DNA from: Streptomyces sp. RPA4-2
Lineage (GTDB): Bacteria > Actinomycetota > Actinomycetes > Streptomycetales > Streptomycetaceae
Length of the DNA: 64,000 bases
Direction of reading: 5' to 3'
NCBI RefSeq assembly: GCF_012273515.2
Contig: NZ_CP050975.2
Location: 8,866,001-8,930,000, forward strand
Below the pieces are notes generated by a model, which made no database searches, was not told the DNA's origin, and saw nothing but the letters and a program-made list of their open reading frames with translations. Of this stretch, positions 18,572-26,710 are shown piece by piece (positions within the stretch are counted from its first letter, which is position 1; the number at the start of each line of letters is the position of its first letter). A program made the position numbers and the translations under genes.

Positions 18572-18928
18572 TCAGTCCTGTGCGTCACCCTTTTCGAAAT
18601 GCAGCGCCAGCGCGCGCAGGATGTCAGCAGTCGACACATCCGCTGCGCCGTCGTCGTGCGCCTCAGCGAGAGTGACGAACGCCAGGGCGAATGCGGCTGC
18701 CATCTGCTCGATGGCCGGTGACCACTCGCGCTTGACGGCCATGGTCACGTCGCGGACGGTCGCGTCTGGAGCGAACGCCAGCTTCGGCATCAGCTCCGTC
18801 AGGAGCGAGGAGATCATCCCGGATGCCGGTTCGGCGCCCTGCTCCTGGCCTTCGCGGACCAGTCGCCGTCTCTCGAGGGCTTCCGTCAGTACGGCAACGA
18901 CTCCCTGCATTACCTCGCGGTGCTCCAT
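18572..18928 (-). CDS. Hypothetical helical protein, 118 aa
   Basis: Start ATG 18928 (MEHREVMQGVVAVLTEALER). The protein is mostly alpha-helical and acidic at the end (LALHFEKGDAQD), without TM segments or a signal peptide. No family is recognised. It lies about 100 nt upstream of the Fic-like toxin on the same strand, so it could be part of that unit, though it does not look like a Phd-type antitoxin. Its 5' end overlaps the possible start of the plus-strand gene at 18920. Confidence 0.5.
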   Translation of the reverse strand: MEHREVMQGVVAVLTEALERRRLVREGQEQGAEPASGMISSLLTELMPKLAFAPDATVRDVTMAVKREWSPAIEQMAAAFALAFVTLAEAHDDGAADVSTADILRALALHFEKGDAQD

Positions 18929-19792
18929 GTGCGGCAGCCTACGACTCCAGTGCGAAGCCACGATTCAGATGCGCGTGGGCTGTTCGTGTGCAGAGGTGAG
19001 CGCCGCGAGGGCGGCCGGTTCGACCTGGGCCGGGCATTGGAGCTGTGGCAGTCCCGGTATGCGCCCGTCCTGTATGTCGTGGACGCCTCCGGCCTGCCGA
19101 TGACTCCGGAGGCTGAGGTCCTTGCCGGACGGGACGCCTCCGATGTGCCGATGCTGCTGCTGGCCCGGGTGATCGCCCCGGTGGTCATCATCGGGACCGA
19201 CGCGGACCTGGTCGACAGCGGGCTCGCGGCCGGCGACTGGGTCGCCCTGCGCTCGGCTCTGGGAGACGTGGGGGTGACGGAGGGCCGGATGGCCGACCTG
19301 GAGAAGCAAGCCGGTGTCCTGGTGAACCTGACCGGCAGCCTGATCGAGGCGGCGGTGCAGTTCAGCAATCCGAAGCGGCTGGCGGTCGCGACGCTGGTGG
19401 CCGCAGTGGCGGCCGGGGCCCTGTACTGGCGGCGCCAGAGGCGCCCGCGTGTCCCCTCGCAGCGGCAGCCGGTGCTGCCTGTGATGCTGGAACACGCCTC
19501 GACACAGATGGCCGCGCTTACCACGCGGCACACGCGGGGTGAGGACCTGTGGCGGCAGGCGGAGCTGGGAACGCCCGGCGACACCCTGCTGCACCGGATC
19601 GCCCGGACGTTGGTCAAATCCCGGACGCCCCTGACCCGTACGGCGATTGTGGAGCGCCTGGGAGAGACCGTCCCCGGTGCGGGGCACACCACGCGGATGG
19701 CGGCCGTCCGGGACGTGCTGACCGCCCACGCGATGTTCGTGGACGTCACGGGCCGGGGGCACTGGCAGGTCGGCCGCCTCGGCGGCCCGTAA
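18920..19792 (+). CDS. PIN-like domain protein with TM segment and C-terminal winged helix
   Basis: The body from residue 32 looks like the second half of a PIN nuclease domain: DLGRALELWQSRYAPVLYVV, VLAGRDASDVPMLLLARVIA, VVIIGTDADLVDSGLAAGDW. A single TM helix follows (RLAVATLVAAVAAGALYW), then a cytoplasmic linker and a C-terminal winged-helix-like region (SRTPLTRTAIVERLGET to HWQVGRLG). The first strand with the conserved PIN Asp is absent, and the first 20 residues overlap the minus-strand gene, so the 5' end is probably truncated or rearranged. Confidence 0.5.
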   Translation: MLHVRQPTTPVRSHDSDARGLFVCRGERREGGRFDLGRALELWQSRYAPVLYVVDASGLPMTPEAEVLAGRDASDVPMLLLARVIAPVVIIGTDADLVDSGLAAGDWVALRSALGDVGVTEGRMADLEKQAGVLVNLTGSLIEAAVQFSNPKRLAVATLVAAVAAGALYWRRQRRPRVPSQRQPVLPVMLEHASTQMAALTTRHTRGEDLWRQAELGTPGDTLLHRIARTLVKSRTPLTRTAIVERLGETVPGAGHTTRMAAVRDVLTAHAMFVDVTGRGHWQVGRLGGP

Positions 19793-19957
19793 CTGGTGAG
19801 CGCTGAGCCCTGCAACCCGCACCGGTGCAGCCAGGCCGGCCGCTGCACGGTTGCACACTGGGGAGCTGCGCAGTCGGGGACGTGCCTGCGCATTGCACTC
19901 GGCGGCCCGGTGCGCAGTGTCCCGCAGCTGCACAACGGGAGAGCCGTTCGTGCGCGT

Positions 19958-20010
19958 GGTGTGGGCTCTGGTGTGGCCTCCCCACAGCCCACGCCGGTGC
20001 GGTCATCCCG
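19958..20010 (+). repeat. 53-bp hairpin repeat, copy 1
   Basis: It matches 20489-20541 at most positions: GGTGTGGGCTCTGGTGTGG followed by CCACAGCCCAC and GCCGGTGCGGTC. The inner palindrome pairs GTGGGCT with AGCCCAC around TGTGG. It lies within the TGCGCA array. Confidence 0.7.
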
Positions 20011-20066
20011 CCTGCGCCCGGTCATCGCGCAGTCTCGCCGGCCGGGCTGCGCATGTGGTGCGCATC

Positions 20067-20112
20067 GGCTGCGCAACGCGGTGACCTGCCGTGGTCGGGC
20101 CTGTGGTCGGGG
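20067..20112 (+). repeat. 46-bp direct repeat module, copy A
   Basis: It begins GGCTGCGCAACGCGGTGACC and ends CTGTGGTCGGGG. It differs from the copy at 21133-21178 at 4 of 46 positions. A shorter relative (GGCTGCGCACCGC, TGACC, GGTGGTCGGG) is at 20611-20641. Confidence 0.7.
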
Positions 20113-20488
20113 TCCTGGTCGGGCTCCGGTGGCGCCCGACCGGTGCGCAGGGCTCGATGCGCAATGGGGCGGTCTGGGAACCGTGTTGCGCAGTGGGCAG
20201 TCCGCTGTGGTCGGTCCTTTGCGCACCGGCTGCGCAGCGCCTCAATCGGACGTGTCGTCCGGATTGTATTCCGGTCGGCAGAAGCTGCAGGTCTTGATGT
20301 ACTCGGTGTCGCGGACAGCGACGTGGAACTGGGCTACGGAGATTGGCGACGTCTTCCGGCTGGCCCTGGTGCAGCTGTCGACGTGCGCGGATTGGTGCGC
20401 AGCGGGCCCGCGCAACACTCTCCGGGACTGCGCAGGGTCCCGCCGCCGCGGCCGGCGCCGAACGCGGCGGAAGGCCTCGCCTGTTCAT

Positions 20489-20541
20489 GGTGTGGGCGCT
20501 GGTGTGGCCTCACCACAGCCCACACCGGCGTGGTCGCCCCG
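20489..20541 (+). repeat. 53-bp hairpin repeat, copy 2
   Basis: Here the stem is perfect: GTGTGGGC pairs with GCCCACAC and, inside, TGTGG with CCACA. Conservation of the pairing between the two copies suggests that the hairpin itself matters. Confidence 0.7.
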
Positions 20542-20747
20542 ACCATGGCTGGGCTACTGCGCGATCACACCAGCTGACTACGCGGGGTCTGCGCAATGGG
20601 TGTGCCCCGGCTGCGCACCGCTGTGACCTGGGGTGGTCGGGTGCGCAGCCGGGGCGGAGGACATGACAGCCCGAGGGGTGCGGACGGCAGTCCTGGCTCC
20701 CTTTTCCGCGTGGCTGCGGTGGAGAGGCTTGTGACGCTGTGCGGTCG

Positions 20748-20945
20748 TCAGCGCTGGGGGCGCTTCGCCTGGCTTGCGCTACCGCCCTTGTGACCGGCTG
20801 CGCGGGCCTCTTCACTGCTGAAGTGCTGGGCTGCGCCCTTCTCCTGGGCCGTGTCGCCCCTGCGCGCGGCGGCAGCGCGCCGCTCTTCGGGGGTCATGTC
20901 CGCAAGGTTCTTCTTGTCCGCGCGGTCGCTCTGGTTCTCGGCCAT
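20748..20945 (-). CDS. KGG-domain protein
   Basis: Start ATG 20945 after CAGGAGACGTCACC. The 65-residue, highly charged protein contains the KGG motif (EEARAAGHKGGSASQAK) of YciG/stress-induced bacterial proteins, and a relative of it earlier (TPEERRAAAARRGDTAQEKG). Such proteins are small, disordered and induced by stress; their biochemical role is not established. It interrupts the TGCGCA array, and no other gene is co-directional with it. Confidence 0.8.
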   Translation of the reverse strand: MAENQSDRADKKNLADMTPEERRAAAARRGDTAQEKGAAQHFSSEEARAAGHKGGSASQAKRPQR

Positions 20946-21718
20946 GGTGACGTCTCCTGTGGGAAGAGAAACTGGGGGTGACATGAGAGTCACACACCGT
21001 GGACAGGCCCGCACCTTGGATCATTACCGTGGGTAGCGGCTCTGGGGGATGCCGCATCGGCGCTCTCCCACGCTCACGGGGCTGATTGCGCAGAGCCTGC
21101 ACAATCAGCCCGAGGGCTGCGCCTCGGCGCGAGGCTGCGCAACGCGCTGACCTGCTGTGGCCGGGTCTGTGGTCGGGGCGATGGCCAGGTGCGGCGGTGC
21201 CGGCAGTTGCGCACCCCGCGCCGTCCTTGAGACGTGTTGCCGCTGCGGTGTTGTCCGGGTGTGGGCGCGGGGTCTGTACTGGTACCTGGTGGCCCTCGGG
21301 GAGCATGGGCGTGCCGGTGATCATCGGGGCGCCCGGTGCTCGCTGCGCAGCGGTGGTGCGCACTTCCGACCTGGTCGCGGCCGTGGTGGTGTGGCCTGGT
21401 AGGGAGTCGACCGTTCCCCCTACCGTCTTCCCTACCGTTCCCCCTGCCAACTCCCCTACCGGCACGTGGAGTTGTCTCGCCGGTGTTCGTGCAGGTCAGG
21501 CCCCTTGACCAGGCCCGACCGCCGGTCTCGACAACCCTCTCTTCTCTCCTCCTGCCCCCTGCCTTGTGTGTGATGTCAGCGGCAGGTGGCAGGGTGGTGC
21601 GGCGTCGAGTCGAGAGGGTCCGGTGGGTTCGCGTGGGGTGCGCGGCCCGGCGCGGCCGGTCCGCGGCCCCGGGCGCCTGTCGGCGCCAGGGGCGGTGAGA
21701 CTGGGCTGGGGGAGGGGT
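20946..21718. other. Non-coding region upstream of the replication-relaxation gene
   Basis: It holds the last five TGCGCA sites, the 46-bp module copy B, and a pyrimidine-rich segment (21410-21461) with ACCGTTCCCCCT at a 24-bp period and CCCTACCG three times. Long open frames on both strands here have biased, non-protein composition. Confidence 0.5.
21133..21178 (+). repeat. 46-bp direct repeat module, copy B
   Basis: It begins GGCTGCGCAACGCGCTGACC and ends CTGTGGTCGGGG, with four mismatches to 20067-20112. It is separated from copy A by 1066 bp. Confidence 0.7.
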
Positions 21719-23140
21719 GTGGGTGTGGGTGGTTCGTTGACGTATCCGTACGGGTCGACCAGCTTGGTGCGCGGGCACGTGCTCGCCGCGCTCGGTGTGC
21801 TGAAGGTCGCGAGCGCGGATCAGATCCGCAGGCTGACCTGTCCGGGACACAAGGACAGCAAGGGTGTACGCAACGCCTGCCTGGATCTCGCCAAGCACGG
21901 ACTGACGCAGTCAGACGGCTTCGCCCGGGATGGGCAGAAGCTGTGGGGCCTGACCGCACTCGGCCTGACCGCCGCAGCGGAAGCCCTCGGGCGCCCTGCT
22001 GCGGACATGGGCGGCAACGCGCGCGGTGCGGCCCGCTCGGGTGCCCCGCACGCGATGGCCGTCAACGAGACGGTCATCGCCCTCACCGGCACCCAGCCTG
22101 TTGCCACCCGCCCGATCGCCCGCACCACCTCAACACCCGCCCCCGGGACGCTCATCGAGGCCGCCATGCCGGCCGTGCGGGCTGGCTCGCCGGTTCCGGC
22201 GGGGTCCGGGTCGGTGGGGTCGTGGGCGACGGAGGTGGTGCACAACATGCCGGGCACGAGCCGTACGCGTCCTTCGGTGCGTGCGGACGCGGTCCTGCGG
22301 GCTCCGGAGGCCGGCCTGCCGGTGCTGCTGGTGGAGGTCGACCGGTGCACGGAAGCGGATGAATTCCTGGCGGCCAAGTTCGCCCGCTACCACCAGTACT
22401 TCCGTGTGAAGGTCAAGGATCCCATGATCCCCGCGGCCCACGCGGTCCATGCGAGTCTGAGCGTCCCGTTGTGGCAGAGCCTTTACCCGCCGACGGGCCG
22501 GGGCGGGTATCCGCCGATTGCCGTGGTGTTCGACCCCGGCACCCGGCTGGGAGAGCAGGCGCTGAAGAACCGTATGAACCGGGTGCTGGATCTGACCCGC
22601 GAACACTGGTCGGGCAAGTACCAGAAACTCAGCGGCTTCGGTGGCGAACCGGACGGCTACGTCGACTTCAGCGACGCCATCCCGGTTCTCTTCACCACCC
22701 TGGACCGCATCCAGGAATCCGGCCCGCTCACACCGGTGTGGTGGCGCTGCGGACACCGCCGGTGGGAAACCCTTTTTGACGCCTTGGACAACCCCCAGGA
22801 CCGCAAAGCCTGGCGCCGGCGCGAGGACGAACGCAGCGCAGCCCGGGAAGGACAGGAAGCCCGCCAGCGGAAAGAAGGAACGGCCCCCGCCGGGAACTGG
22901 TCCCCGCGGCACCTTCCCGCGCAGCCCGAACCCGCACTCCCGCCCGCCCCACCCTGCGAGACCTGCGGCGGGCCGCTCAAGGGACTTGGCGGCGAAGGCC
23001 CCTCCGCCCCGCCGCCGGACGGACGCACCTGCGAGGCCTGCCGCATCACCGAAGCCTCGCGGCCGCCCACCGGACTGTTCAAAGCCCTCTTCGGCCGCCA
23101 GGACAAGAAGCCCCCACCAGAGCCCTCAGCCGGACTGTGA
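21719..23140 (+). CDS. Replication-relaxation family protein
   Basis: Start GTG 21719 (or 21725) after GGGGGAGGGG; the open frame further upstream is repeat-like. A winged-helix start (RGHVLAALGVLKVASADQIR) is typical of Replic_Relax proteins on actinobacterial plasmids and ICEs. The core (SVRADAVLRAPEAG, LLVEVDRCTEADEFLAAKFA, RYHQYFRVK) resembles a nuclease-like fold with an E-x-D strand. The C-terminal 130 residues are charged, with two CxxC pairs (CETCGGPLKG and CEACR) that could bind zinc. The gene lies directly next to the TGCGCA repeats. Confidence 0.8.
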   Translation: MGVGGSLTYPYGSTSLVRGHVLAALGVLKVASADQIRRLTCPGHKDSKGVRNACLDLAKHGLTQSDGFARDGQKLWGLTALGLTAAAEALGRPAADMGGNARGAARSGAPHAMAVNETVIALTGTQPVATRPIARTTSTPAPGTLIEAAMPAVRAGSPVPAGSGSVGSWATEVVHNMPGTSRTRPSVRADAVLRAPEAGLPVLLVEVDRCTEADEFLAAKFARYHQYFRVKVKDPMIPAAHAVHASLSVPLWQSLYPPTGRGGYPPIAVVFDPGTRLGEQALKNRMNRVLDLTREHWSGKYQKLSGFGGEPDGYVDFSDAIPVLFTTLDRIQESGPLTPVWWRCGHRRWETLFDALDNPQDRKAWRRREDERSAAREGQEARQRKEGTAPAGNWSPRHLPAQPEPALPPAPPCETCGGPLKGLGGEGPSAPPPDGRTCEACRITEASRPPTGLFKALFGRQDKKPPPEPSAGL

Positions 23141-26162: not shown

Positions 26163-26710
26163 AGTCCCAGTTGAGTCCGAGTGCAGCGAGTGCGGCGAGC
26201 TTGTCCGCGGTGAGCGTGGCCCGCCTGCTCTTGCTGTTCGACAGGAACACCCCCAGCCGAACCTGAGTCCCGTCCGGCAACGTCTCTACATGCCGCCTGG
26301 GGACGGTCACGGAGCCCGTGTGGACCCCTTGTACTGCGCGAGGGCCGCTACGCCCGTCTCGAAGGCGCTCACGGCTGCCGTGGACGGCTTCACCTCCTCT
26401 ACCGGTTCCGGGGCGAGCGCCATGATGCCGAGCTGTTCCAGGCGCTCATGCTGTCCGTCCGTCAGGGCTGCCCAGACTGCAGGTTTCCGTTGCCGGGCCA
26501 GCCGCTTCCCGACGTCCATGCCGCGCACGGTGACCCCGGACAGGACCTGCGTCTCCCCGGCCTGGCCTTGCTCGTCGGCGACGAGCTCGCGTAGTGCGGC
26601 GTAGTGACGCTGCCGGTCAGCGGGCCCAATCCAGGTTCCCGTCCGCGTCGACCTCTCGCAGCACCGTCAGGACCCGTAGGCCTGTGACGGTGCAGGTGTC
26701 ACAGCGTGTT
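26163..26710 (-). pseudogene. C-terminal helicase-associated domains of a decayed helicase
   Basis: Reading down the minus strand: TVTGLRVLTVLREVDADG then NLDWA, a shift near 26620, PADRQRHYAALRELVADE, VTVRGMDVGKRLARQRK and GQHERLEQLGIMALAPE. A one-base loss after ALAQYK (near 26325) is followed by VTVPRRHVETLPDGTQVRLG and LAALAALGLNWD, stopping at 26163. This matches the tandem HA (helicase-associated) repeats at the end of large Streptomyces SNF2/DEAD-like helicases. The motor domains are absent. Confidence 0.75.

Follow-up and report, generated by a model that had tools for sequence, protein, structure and literature searches.

The window, a stretch of 64,000 nucleotides (64 kb) from the chromosome of Streptomyces sp. 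RPA4-2, contains an array of the palindrome TGCGCA followed by a gene for a Replic_Relax (PF13814) protein. The array is built of units consisting of a hairpin, TGCGCA boxes and TGGTCGGG boxes, and such units were also detected in a second chromosomal copy and in several linear plasmids. The chromosome has two copies of the module, at 8.797 and 8.886 Mb, and the distance to its right end is about 0.97 Mb. The features of the region are as follows (window coordinates, with strand where assigned).

18920–19792, plus strand: ORF X, 290 aa, of unknown family, upstream of the array (ORF list)
19867–19916: three TGCGCA preceding unit 1 (site count)
19958–19995: unit 1 hairpin (repeat D2), candidate nic region (single-strand DNA fold, z = -2.15)
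20048–20236: unit 1 array, eight TGCGCA with spacings 11, 11, 74, 14, 29, 33 and 11 (site positions)
20092–20123, plus strand: three TGGTCGGG boxes at 12-bp pitch, within and just past repeat D1
20248–20385, minus strand: DUF6233 gene remnant, 46 aa matched (76–80% identity to intact relatives)
20396–20434: two TGCGCA (site count)
20489–20526: unit 2 hairpin (D2) (fold z = -2.84)
20590–20647: unit 2, three TGCGCA and a TGGTCGGG box at 20634
20751–20960, minus strand: ORF of about 70 codons with a KGG motif below Pfam's cut-off, kept beside the array in NBC_01176
21079–21111: unit 3 hairpin, with a TGCGCA inside (fold z = -5.57)
21087–21213: unit 3, TGCGCA at 21087, 21136 and 21208
21344–21362: final two TGCGCA, 13 bp apart (site count)
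21410–21457, plus strand: CCCTACCG-type 12-bp direct repeats, between the array and the Replic_Relax gene
21725–23140, plus strand: Replic_Relax (PF13814) gene, 471 aa, MOBC-type relaxase candidate
26221–26618, minus strand: remnant matching a subtelomeric helicase gene (here named TtrA-like)

ORF X had no Pfam match above the cut-off and no NCBIfam match, and tblastn found no relatives in the loci collected up to that point. An Rfam search of 18900–21800 with E up to 1 gave no match to an RNA gene. The hairpins and long direct repeats reported by the first-pass annotation are real, and its placement of the array in non-coding DNA holds in part: the sites avoid the ORF at 20751–20960, but this small conserved ORF and the DUF6233 remnant lie inside the array region.

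A recount gave the same figures as the first pass, with 21 TGCGCA in 1.5 kb (19867–21362), 13 of them packed into 568 bp (19867–20434). The whole window has 50 copies, so that the array accounts for 21 of the 50, and none of 100 shuffles reached this number (mean 26.8, sd 5.35). The expectation of less than one site was borne out by Markov models of order 1–3 trained on the window (0.42–0.68 per 1496 bp), while models of order 1–2 trained on the array region itself gave 1.1–1.5 and a region-trained model of order 3, which learns the word, gave 7.0. To assess density across the genome, a pattern of three TGCGCA with gaps of 1–40 bp was used, with the reversed pattern as control. The pattern has 16 matches in the 9.86-Mb genome against 0 for the reversed pattern; six of the 16 belong to this array, one to the chromosomal copy and four to a further array near the left end, at 11.2 kb.

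The TGCGCA sites are helically phased in the window alone (P-value = 0.0012). With one array locus per lineage, in a set without MobF-type and TnsA-like loci, the power was 9.1 against a null mean of 2.0 (P-value = 0.001), and in the four Replic_Relax-linked lineages alone the P-value was only 0.02. All 30 de-duplicated arrays together gave 25.3 against 2.5; the MobF-type arrays are the strongest phased group (27.3) and supply much of this pooled signal. The flank preference R-n-TGCGCA-n-Y was 0.75 in the window family and 0.59 at isolated sites. Array sites are largely retained in a relative with 74% identity. Comparison with pRLB1-9.2 revealed preservation of 8/11 TGCGCA versus 50/194 control hexamers, while the values against NBC_01176 (10/12), NBC_01455 plasmid 1 (9/15) and the chromosomal copy (11/13) are not, or not shown to be, significant. 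Preservation between L104 and L105 (8/9) comes mainly from an array within a tcpC-like gene and was not counted as non-coding evidence. The palindromic core, the flanks, the phasing and the preserved sites support the earlier proposal that the array is bound by a symmetric (dimeric) protein.

The TGGTCGGG boxes and the hairpins were compared across loci. Among 36 chosen loci, TGGTCGGG density was 2.90/kb within 400 bp of arrays versus 0.19/kb elsewhere. The boxes accompany most Replic_Relax-linked arrays, but are absent from those of L137 and L130. The last five spacings of unit 1 are the same in NBC_01455 plasmid 2. TGCGCA boxes begin 53 and 64 bp past the hairpins of units 1 and 2, and 30 bp past the hairpin in NBC_01455 plasmid 2. 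A hairpin with adjacent phased boxes is present, which may correspond to the inverted repeat and neighbouring repeats of an oriT; inspection by eye revealed no compensatory changes in the hairpin.

The 471-aa protein, whose start codon was set by a ribosome-site-like sequence and by relatives, matches PF13814 with E = 3.1e-18 (67 bits, cut-off 25.3). The domain that defines assignment to MOBC was found in 28 of 28 aligned members, and residues D188, E204-x-D206 and K218, which may be the acidic and lysine residues of a PD-(D/E)XK-type fold, are invariant in 15 of 15. PF13814 is listed as a MobC relaxase in the available text of PMC5357655, on which the equation of PF13814 with MOBC rests; one table row of PMC11104534 pairs Replic_Relax with MOBT. 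The protein is thus a candidate MOBC-type relaxase. Its N-terminus can be read as a winged helix, and no convincing relative of solved structure was found (best E = 0.36). As judged from dN/dS values of 0.26 and 0.21 against two relatives, the gene is under purifying selection. Replic_Relax appears to be the best single candidate for the ligand of the array, and the tandem-wHTH protein of conjugative relatives would be a serious alternative.

The array (19867–21362) lies next to the Replic_Relax gene (21725–23140), as an oriT lies next to its relaxase gene, and adjoins Replic_Relax also in L037, L047 and L048. In a count that left out 14 further Replic_Relax search matches, TGCGCA was present no more than 420 bp upstream of Replic_Relax in 11 of the 13 loci with at least 50% Replic_Relax identity, versus 2 of 37 loci of more distant Replic_Relax (35 of 37 without). 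Conservation of the array at homologous loci, a check proposed in the first pass, therefore holds for close Replic_Relax relatives but not for all Replic_Relax loci. The possibility that distant Replic_Relax proteins use CGGCCG instead was rejected, because CGGCCG there belongs to one shared leader. PF13814 was found in 27/32 array-rich versus 9/32 array-free genomes, and co-residence on plasmids and chromosome arms could cause part of this association. NBC_01455 plasmid 2 (30.9 kb) has a nine-site array and no Replic_Relax; another plasmid of the strain has Replic_Relax. A class of pattern-found arrays without Replic_Relax nearby was also considered and rejected, as several have Replic_Relax about 12–14 kb away on the same element.

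Some relatives lie in conjugation operons. In four annotated plasmids, Replic_Relax immediately follows an ATPase in the coupling-protein position, although no Pfam or NCBIfam model matched this ATPase. Three of the four also have VirB4-like genes and a gene annotated as 'conjugal transfer protein', which is TcpC-like in the single operon scanned, and carry TGCGCA arrays at the start of the operon; among these three loci, one array is inside an annotated tcpC-like gene and one locus has no array in the gap. No VirB4 relative was found in the RPA4-2 genome, and no coupling-protein gene was recognised among the scanned genes beside the window's Replic_Relax.

We tentatively propose, as a reading that falls somewhat short of being probable, that the region is an oriT-like relaxosome-binding array, the cis-acting half of a plasmid-derived mobilisation module whose trans-acting half is Replic_Relax. 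The TGCGCA palindromes, and possibly the TGGTCGGG boxes too, would be bound on one helix face by a dimeric protein, most likely either the relaxase or an accessory protein of the relaxosome. The bound complex would bring a nuclease to its nick site, within the neighbouring hairpin or close to it, and the nicked DNA would be passed to the conjugation machine from a helper element. The module itself would derive from a linear plasmid and now reside in the chromosome arm. The first-pass annotation had named a plasmid origin, a centromere or a transfer site; of these, the transfer site agrees best with the findings, since published work uses PF13814 as a relaxase family and conjugation operons contain some of the relatives. 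The other two are weakened as described below.

Several other explanations were weighed against the oriT-like reading. An operator array, in which TGCGCA is bound by a tandem winged-helix (HTH_36) protein that controls the transfer operon and the window holds a stray or captured operator, is unlikely. It is suggested by eight of nine other loci and by L134, where the array is located between the HTH_36 gene and the tra operon, 180–330 bp upstream of the former. However, no HTH_36 relative was detected at an E cut-off of 1e-4 in either the window or the sequence retrieved around window-type arrays, the array of NBC_01455 plasmid 2 is located between two convergent 3' ends and not at a promoter, L136 has an HTH_36 relative and no array, and L135 has no array in the gap. 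NBC_01455 plasmid 1 was found to carry an HTH_36 relative 480 kb from its array. A replication origin with iterons bound by Replic_Relax appears improbable. An array with direct and inverted repeats adjoining the gene of a DNA-binding protein resembles the rep/iteron loci of pFP1, pFP11 and pWTY27 (available text of PMC3583192), and TGCGCA lies within 100 bp of the Replic_Relax start in 7 of 13 close-relative loci. This reading is weakened because three array-bearing plasmids have a DnaB-type replication locus elsewhere, 22–58 kb from the array, where an iteron origin would have its initiator adjacent; in addition, the adjoining gene here belongs to a family handled as relaxases (PMC5357655). 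For a plasmid centromere, with a static ParB-type complex on the repeat array, the chance seems very small. On NBC_01455 plasmid 2 the array is just past a ParA-like/283-aa operon, the only case of parAB linkage. Both this plasmid and pRLB1-9.2 have the array as their sole cluster of at least three sites, compared with two such clusters on S. phaeoluteigriseus plasmid 1. The centromere is weakened because pRLB1-9.2 and S. phaeoluteigriseus plasmid 1 have their parAB genes at least 10 kb away from the array, and because contig L070, with the same par operon (95%/131 aa, 80%/291 aa), has no TGCGCA array in 14.7 kb; moreover, those ParB-type proteins of Streptomyces plasmids that have been characterised act at one or a few parS sites of 13–19 bp (available text of PMC13245405 and PMC12260392).

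Further TGCGCA clusters are found next to MobF relaxase genes, next to a TnsA-like gene and in Kitasatospora, with flank preferences of 0.94, 0.88 and 0.57, respectively, and strong phasing in the MobF clusters. They favour a site for a DNA-binding protein of the host that many unrelated mobile elements have recruited, but array-rich genomes tend to carry PF13814, and the TGGTCGGG boxes found at most Replic_Relax-linked arrays are absent from MobF, TnsA-like and Kitasatospora ones, which leaves this explanation with a low probability. One ligand for all TGCGCA clusters was considered, as the MobF-linked clusters first looked alike; they were then set apart, because their TGCGCA sites are kept about as often as other hexamers and none of the three MobF-type arrays tested has TGGTCGGG boxes nearby. 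In seven pairs of five MobF-type loci, TGCGCA was kept in 3/7, 4/6, 4/7, 4/5, 3/5, 1/5 and 2/5 cases, and other hexamers in 43, 47, 36, 61, 49, 17 and 45%, respectively. Within this group the TrwC domain was shown for L056 and L074 and is annotated for pSGRIFU2 (= L072/L098), while L055, L076, L083 and L085 were assigned by position only, and the genes scanned in L083 and L085 had no Pfam match. Finally, a decaying repeat with no present function in the RPA4-2 chromosome is highly improbable. It is favoured by the remnant state of the neighbouring DUF6233 and helicase genes and by the genome, in which no VirB4 relative was found, but the selection on Replic_Relax argues against it, as does non-coding DNA that diverges far less than synonymous sites (90–92% identity to plasmid NBC_01176, while gene dS = 0.32); gene conversion between copies may explain part of this low divergence.

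A wider proposition, which we consider somewhat unlikely, is that Streptomyces has, on its linear plasmids and in its chromosome arms, a relaxase-dependent transfer origin of new architecture, with helically phased TGCGCA, 12-bp-pitched TGGTCGGG boxes and hairpins read by MOBC (Replic_Relax). Chromosome arms would then be mobilisable from oriT-like sites of their own, in parallel with double-strand transfer by TraB. If true, it would give a role to the common, functionally vague 'replication-relaxation family protein' of linear plasmids and arms, and a sequence signature for mobilisable linear replicons, which are often classed as non-mobilizable by MOB-suite. The MOB-suite calls themselves, non-mobilizable for 14/21 and 80/147 matching plasmids, count against the oriT-like reading. 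Relaxase-driven transfer of chromosome arms would also become directly testable. Among the matches listed, the literature on TGCGCA/Streptomyces plasmids and on Replic_Relax held no report of such an array.

Transfer by TraB is not known to need a relaxase. Plasmid and chromosome transfer in Streptomyces has been described mainly via TraB, a mover of double-stranded DNA (PMC12857230), whose recognition sequences, like clt, are short cis-acting repeats (available text of PMC3583192 and PMC12857230). The array shares short repeats with these sites, but a clt would be expected beside traB, while on three plasmids the traB/ftsK-like gene is 12–40 kb from the array. Relaxase-type ICEs of Streptomyces, one of them on a plasmid, combine a relaxase, a coupling protein and VirB4 in the same genus, whereas the available text of PMC9513070 reports no array in them. 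Streptococcal IMEs with Rel_PF13814/MobC use the same Pfam relaxase family as the window gene and encode a VirD4 coupling protein (available text of PMC5357655 and PMC12479173), unlike the window copy, beside which none was recognised, and the Streptomyces relatives, whose ATPase matches no model. MOBC comprises PD-(D/E)XK-related relaxases, and in pAD1 the binding site of TraX consists of five direct repeats 70–120 bp from nic (available text of PMC12857230). The module would resemble such MOBC oriTs (pAD1 TraX, CloDF13 MobC) in its relaxase family and in repeats near nic, which here would be the candidate hairpin. It differs from them in that its boxes are helically phased 6-bp palindromes, with 21 copies in 1.5 kb, that these form several units in which boxes of a second type also occur, and that it is found on linear plasmids and a chromosome arm.

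The first-pass annotation had described a dense cluster of the palindrome TGCGCA, with less than one site expected, beside a Replic_Relax gene. Recounting confirmed this density: 21 sites lie at 19867–21362, 13 of them within 568 bp, while 0.42–0.68 are expected per 1496 bp under models of order 1–3 trained on the window, which holds 50 sites in total. Over the whole source genome (a single 9.86-Mb contig in which the window spans 8,866,001–8,930,000), a three-site pattern gave 16 matches vs 0 with a reversed control word. Eleven of the 16 belong to the window array, to its copy at 8.797 Mb or to an array situated 11.2 kb in from the left end. In the genus, 265 of 392 genomes contain one or more three-site matches with gaps of no more than 25 bp, and the reversed control likewise clusters in some genomes, so a TGCGCA cluster by itself is not specific. 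All plasmid records matching the array region (21/21) are from Streptomyces.

Three related units, spaced at about 530 bp, make up the array region. Its features and neighbours are as follows.

Features of the array region (window coordinates)
19867–21362: TGCGCA array
Units 1 and 2: hairpin D2, 19-nt arms, 84% complementary in unit 2
Unit 3: hairpin unlike D2 (z −5.6)
20248–20385: DUF6233 remnant
20751–20960: small conserved ORF without TGCGCA sites (the array skips it)
21410–21457: CCCTACCG-type repeats, 11–12 bp pitch
About 21530–21560: ACAACCCTCT(T)CTCTC leader motif
21725–23140 (+): Replic_Relax (PF13814) gene, 471 aa
23349–24278: APH (PF01636) phosphotransferase-family gene, directly downstream of Replic_Relax

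The D2 hairpin is followed by TGCGCA boxes and a D1 segment, 53 bp on in unit 1 and 64 bp in unit 2, and TGGTCGGG boxes with a 12-bp pitch also occur within D1. Spacings of TGCGCA are 11, 11, 74, 14, 29, 33 and 11 bp in unit 1, and 22, 11, 22, 74, 14, 29, 33 and 11 in the 30.9-kb linear plasmid of NBC_01455. The CCCTACCG-type repeats between array and Replic_Relax gene are common to many of the 15 loci shown and stand upstream of Replic_Relax genes close to that of the window (e.g. L036, L038, L044, L045, L049, L069, L103); they were not seen at L037, L047 and L048, where the gene is immediately preceded by the TGCGCA array. The leader motif is conserved upstream of both close and distant Replic_Relax genes (e.g. 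L056, L072), whose proteins are only about 35–40% identical.

Judged from sequence, the array appears to behave like protein-binding DNA in its phasing and flank preference. Taken alone, the TGCGCA sites of the window show phasing near 10.5 bp (p = 0.0012), and a period of 10.7 bp was found over 30 arrays (34 minus four duplicate or tandem ones; power 25.3 vs a null mean of 2.5). The best-phased arrays are of MobF type (power 27.3), regarded as different from the window kind. When MobF-type and TnsA-like loci were removed and each lineage was represented by a single locus (10 loci, 13 arrays), power was 9.1 vs 2.0 (p = 0.001); phasing was also detected in Replic_Relax-proximal loci (p = 0.002), in the conjugative family (p = 0.002, best period 11.2 bp) and in four Replic_Relax-linked lineages alone (p = 0.02). 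Among other palindromic hexamers in the same 81 loci, only four gave enough arrays, with power 0.9 to 6.3 at 10–11.5 bp; some of these loci had been picked for TGCGCA clusters, a bias greater on array number than on phase. The flanks favoured by array sites are R at −2 and Y at +2, with 75% for the window family vs 59% for isolated sites.

Other TGCGCA clusters were also observed. At about 5.4–5.9 kb in L056 and L072, a MobF (TrwC) relaxase gene is followed by a hairpin with 20-bp arms and by an array of GGTGCG/CGCACC repeats in which TGCGCA is strongly phased, and this DNA may be an oriT of its own type; L076 and L085 carry similar DNA. Four TGCGCA spaced 20-11-20 bp with diverged spacers were found in two genomes (L109:6743–6799, adjoining a TnsA-like gene, and L110:6860–6916), possibly transposase sites at a Tn7-like end.

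Linkage to Replic_Relax was compared in 54 loci found with the window protein, plus plasmid loci, leaving out 14 mostly partial or duplicate hits and grouping by identity, not by tree. Conservation of the array at homologous loci held for the close group (at least 50% identity; 36 TGCGCA copies within 420 bp upstream in 11 of 13 non-redundant loci) but not for the distant group (two copies in 2 of 37). In at least nine of 34 plasmid records with D1, a Replic_Relax gene lies no more than 1 kb from the best D1 match; in several of these nine or more, only the TGGTCGGG half matches. PF13814 was present in 27/32 array-rich genomes (six or more three-site matches, coding matches counted too), 9/32 array-free and 4/9 control-word-rich ones; since larger size is a tendency of the array-rich genomes, replicon content may account for part of this association. 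In 36 chosen, partly homologous loci, 127 TGGTCGGG boxes lie within 400 bp of arrays (2.90/kb) vs 129 elsewhere (0.19/kb). They accompany most Replic_Relax-linked arrays (exceptions L130 and L137), and among these loci none was near MobF-type, TnsA-like or Kitasatospora clusters, L108 or L133.

Comparison with the array-bearing relative pRLB1-9.2 (74% identity, 493 aligned bp) revealed that 8/11 TGCGCA are intact vs 50/194 control hexamers (p = 0.002). The less diverged pairs (NBC_01176, 10/12; NBC_01455 plasmid 1, 9/15; chromosomal copy, 11/13) did not discriminate site preservation; the region aligned with NBC_01176 is about 90–92% identical, and dS in the Replic_Relax gene is 0.32. The second chromosomal array and Replic_Relax copy (G000:C1:8797427–8800184, i.e. 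L016:11427–14184) is 97% identical to the window in its upstream part and only 88% in protein. DNA identity per 200 bp is 92.5–100% up to about 21.8 kb and 78–94% within the gene (dS = 0.26), and this abrupt fall suggests gene conversion of array and leader as well as constraint. On several linear plasmids, the gene next after Replic_Relax, close to the end, is a helicase gene pointing inward, and remnants of such a helicase gene lie downstream of both chromosomal copies; we therefore read both as probably derived from a plasmid end by recombination into the arm. A third PF13814 copy (G000:C1:8786631–8787155) has a stop codon within the match. The left-end array (L020:10900–11320, 11 kb from the chromosome end) contains 10 TGCGCA with TGGTCGGG boxes nearby, and a Replic_Relax-like ORF lies at L020:18573–19310.

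In relatives, a conjugative element was reached from TGCGCA clusters found by pattern alone. Genes for a TcpC-like (PF12642) 'conjugal transfer protein', a VirB4-like ATPase (AAA_10 match; NCBIfam TcpF far under its cut-off), an NlpC/P60 protein, a large ATPase and Replic_Relax follow in one direction, and a tandem winged-helix (HTH_36) gene points the opposite way (domains scanned in L104 and L134, remaining loci by homology or annotation). The nearest rival to an oriT-like site is that the array is an operator for this tandem winged-helix protein. In nine of 13 loci an array lies no further than 330 bp from the start of the HTH_36 gene, in three it is 0.7–1.2 kb away and in one there is none; in L134, L135 and L137 the annotated tcpC-like gene itself contains one array. 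A relative of the VirB4-like protein was not detected in the source genome, an empty search result being weak as evidence, so transfer would need a helper.

Our own reading, to which we give slightly less than even credence, is that the array region is an oriT-like site beside a PF13814 relaxase candidate, with ligand, nick and transfer putative. D188, E204, D206 and K218 are kept in 15/15 aligned Replic_Relax proteins, and the N-terminus may be a winged helix; Pfam showed no separate HTH there. In excerpts of the literature, Rel_PF13814 is a MobC relaxase recognised by CONJscan, with two IMEs carrying a VirD4 coupling protein (PMC5357655); PF13814 is also termed a relaxase, with VirD4, in PMC12479173, and is among the relaxase models of PMC11104534, paired with MOBT in one table row. 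A hairpin, boxes that set in 30–65 bp on and extend about 240 bp, and an adjoining gene of a relaxase family whose studied member binds distant repeats form a layout to be expected of an oriT. An excerpt of PMC12857230 describes MOBC as related to PD-(D/E)XK restriction endonucleases and gives five direct repeats, 70–120 bp from nic, as the binding site of TraX of pAD1.
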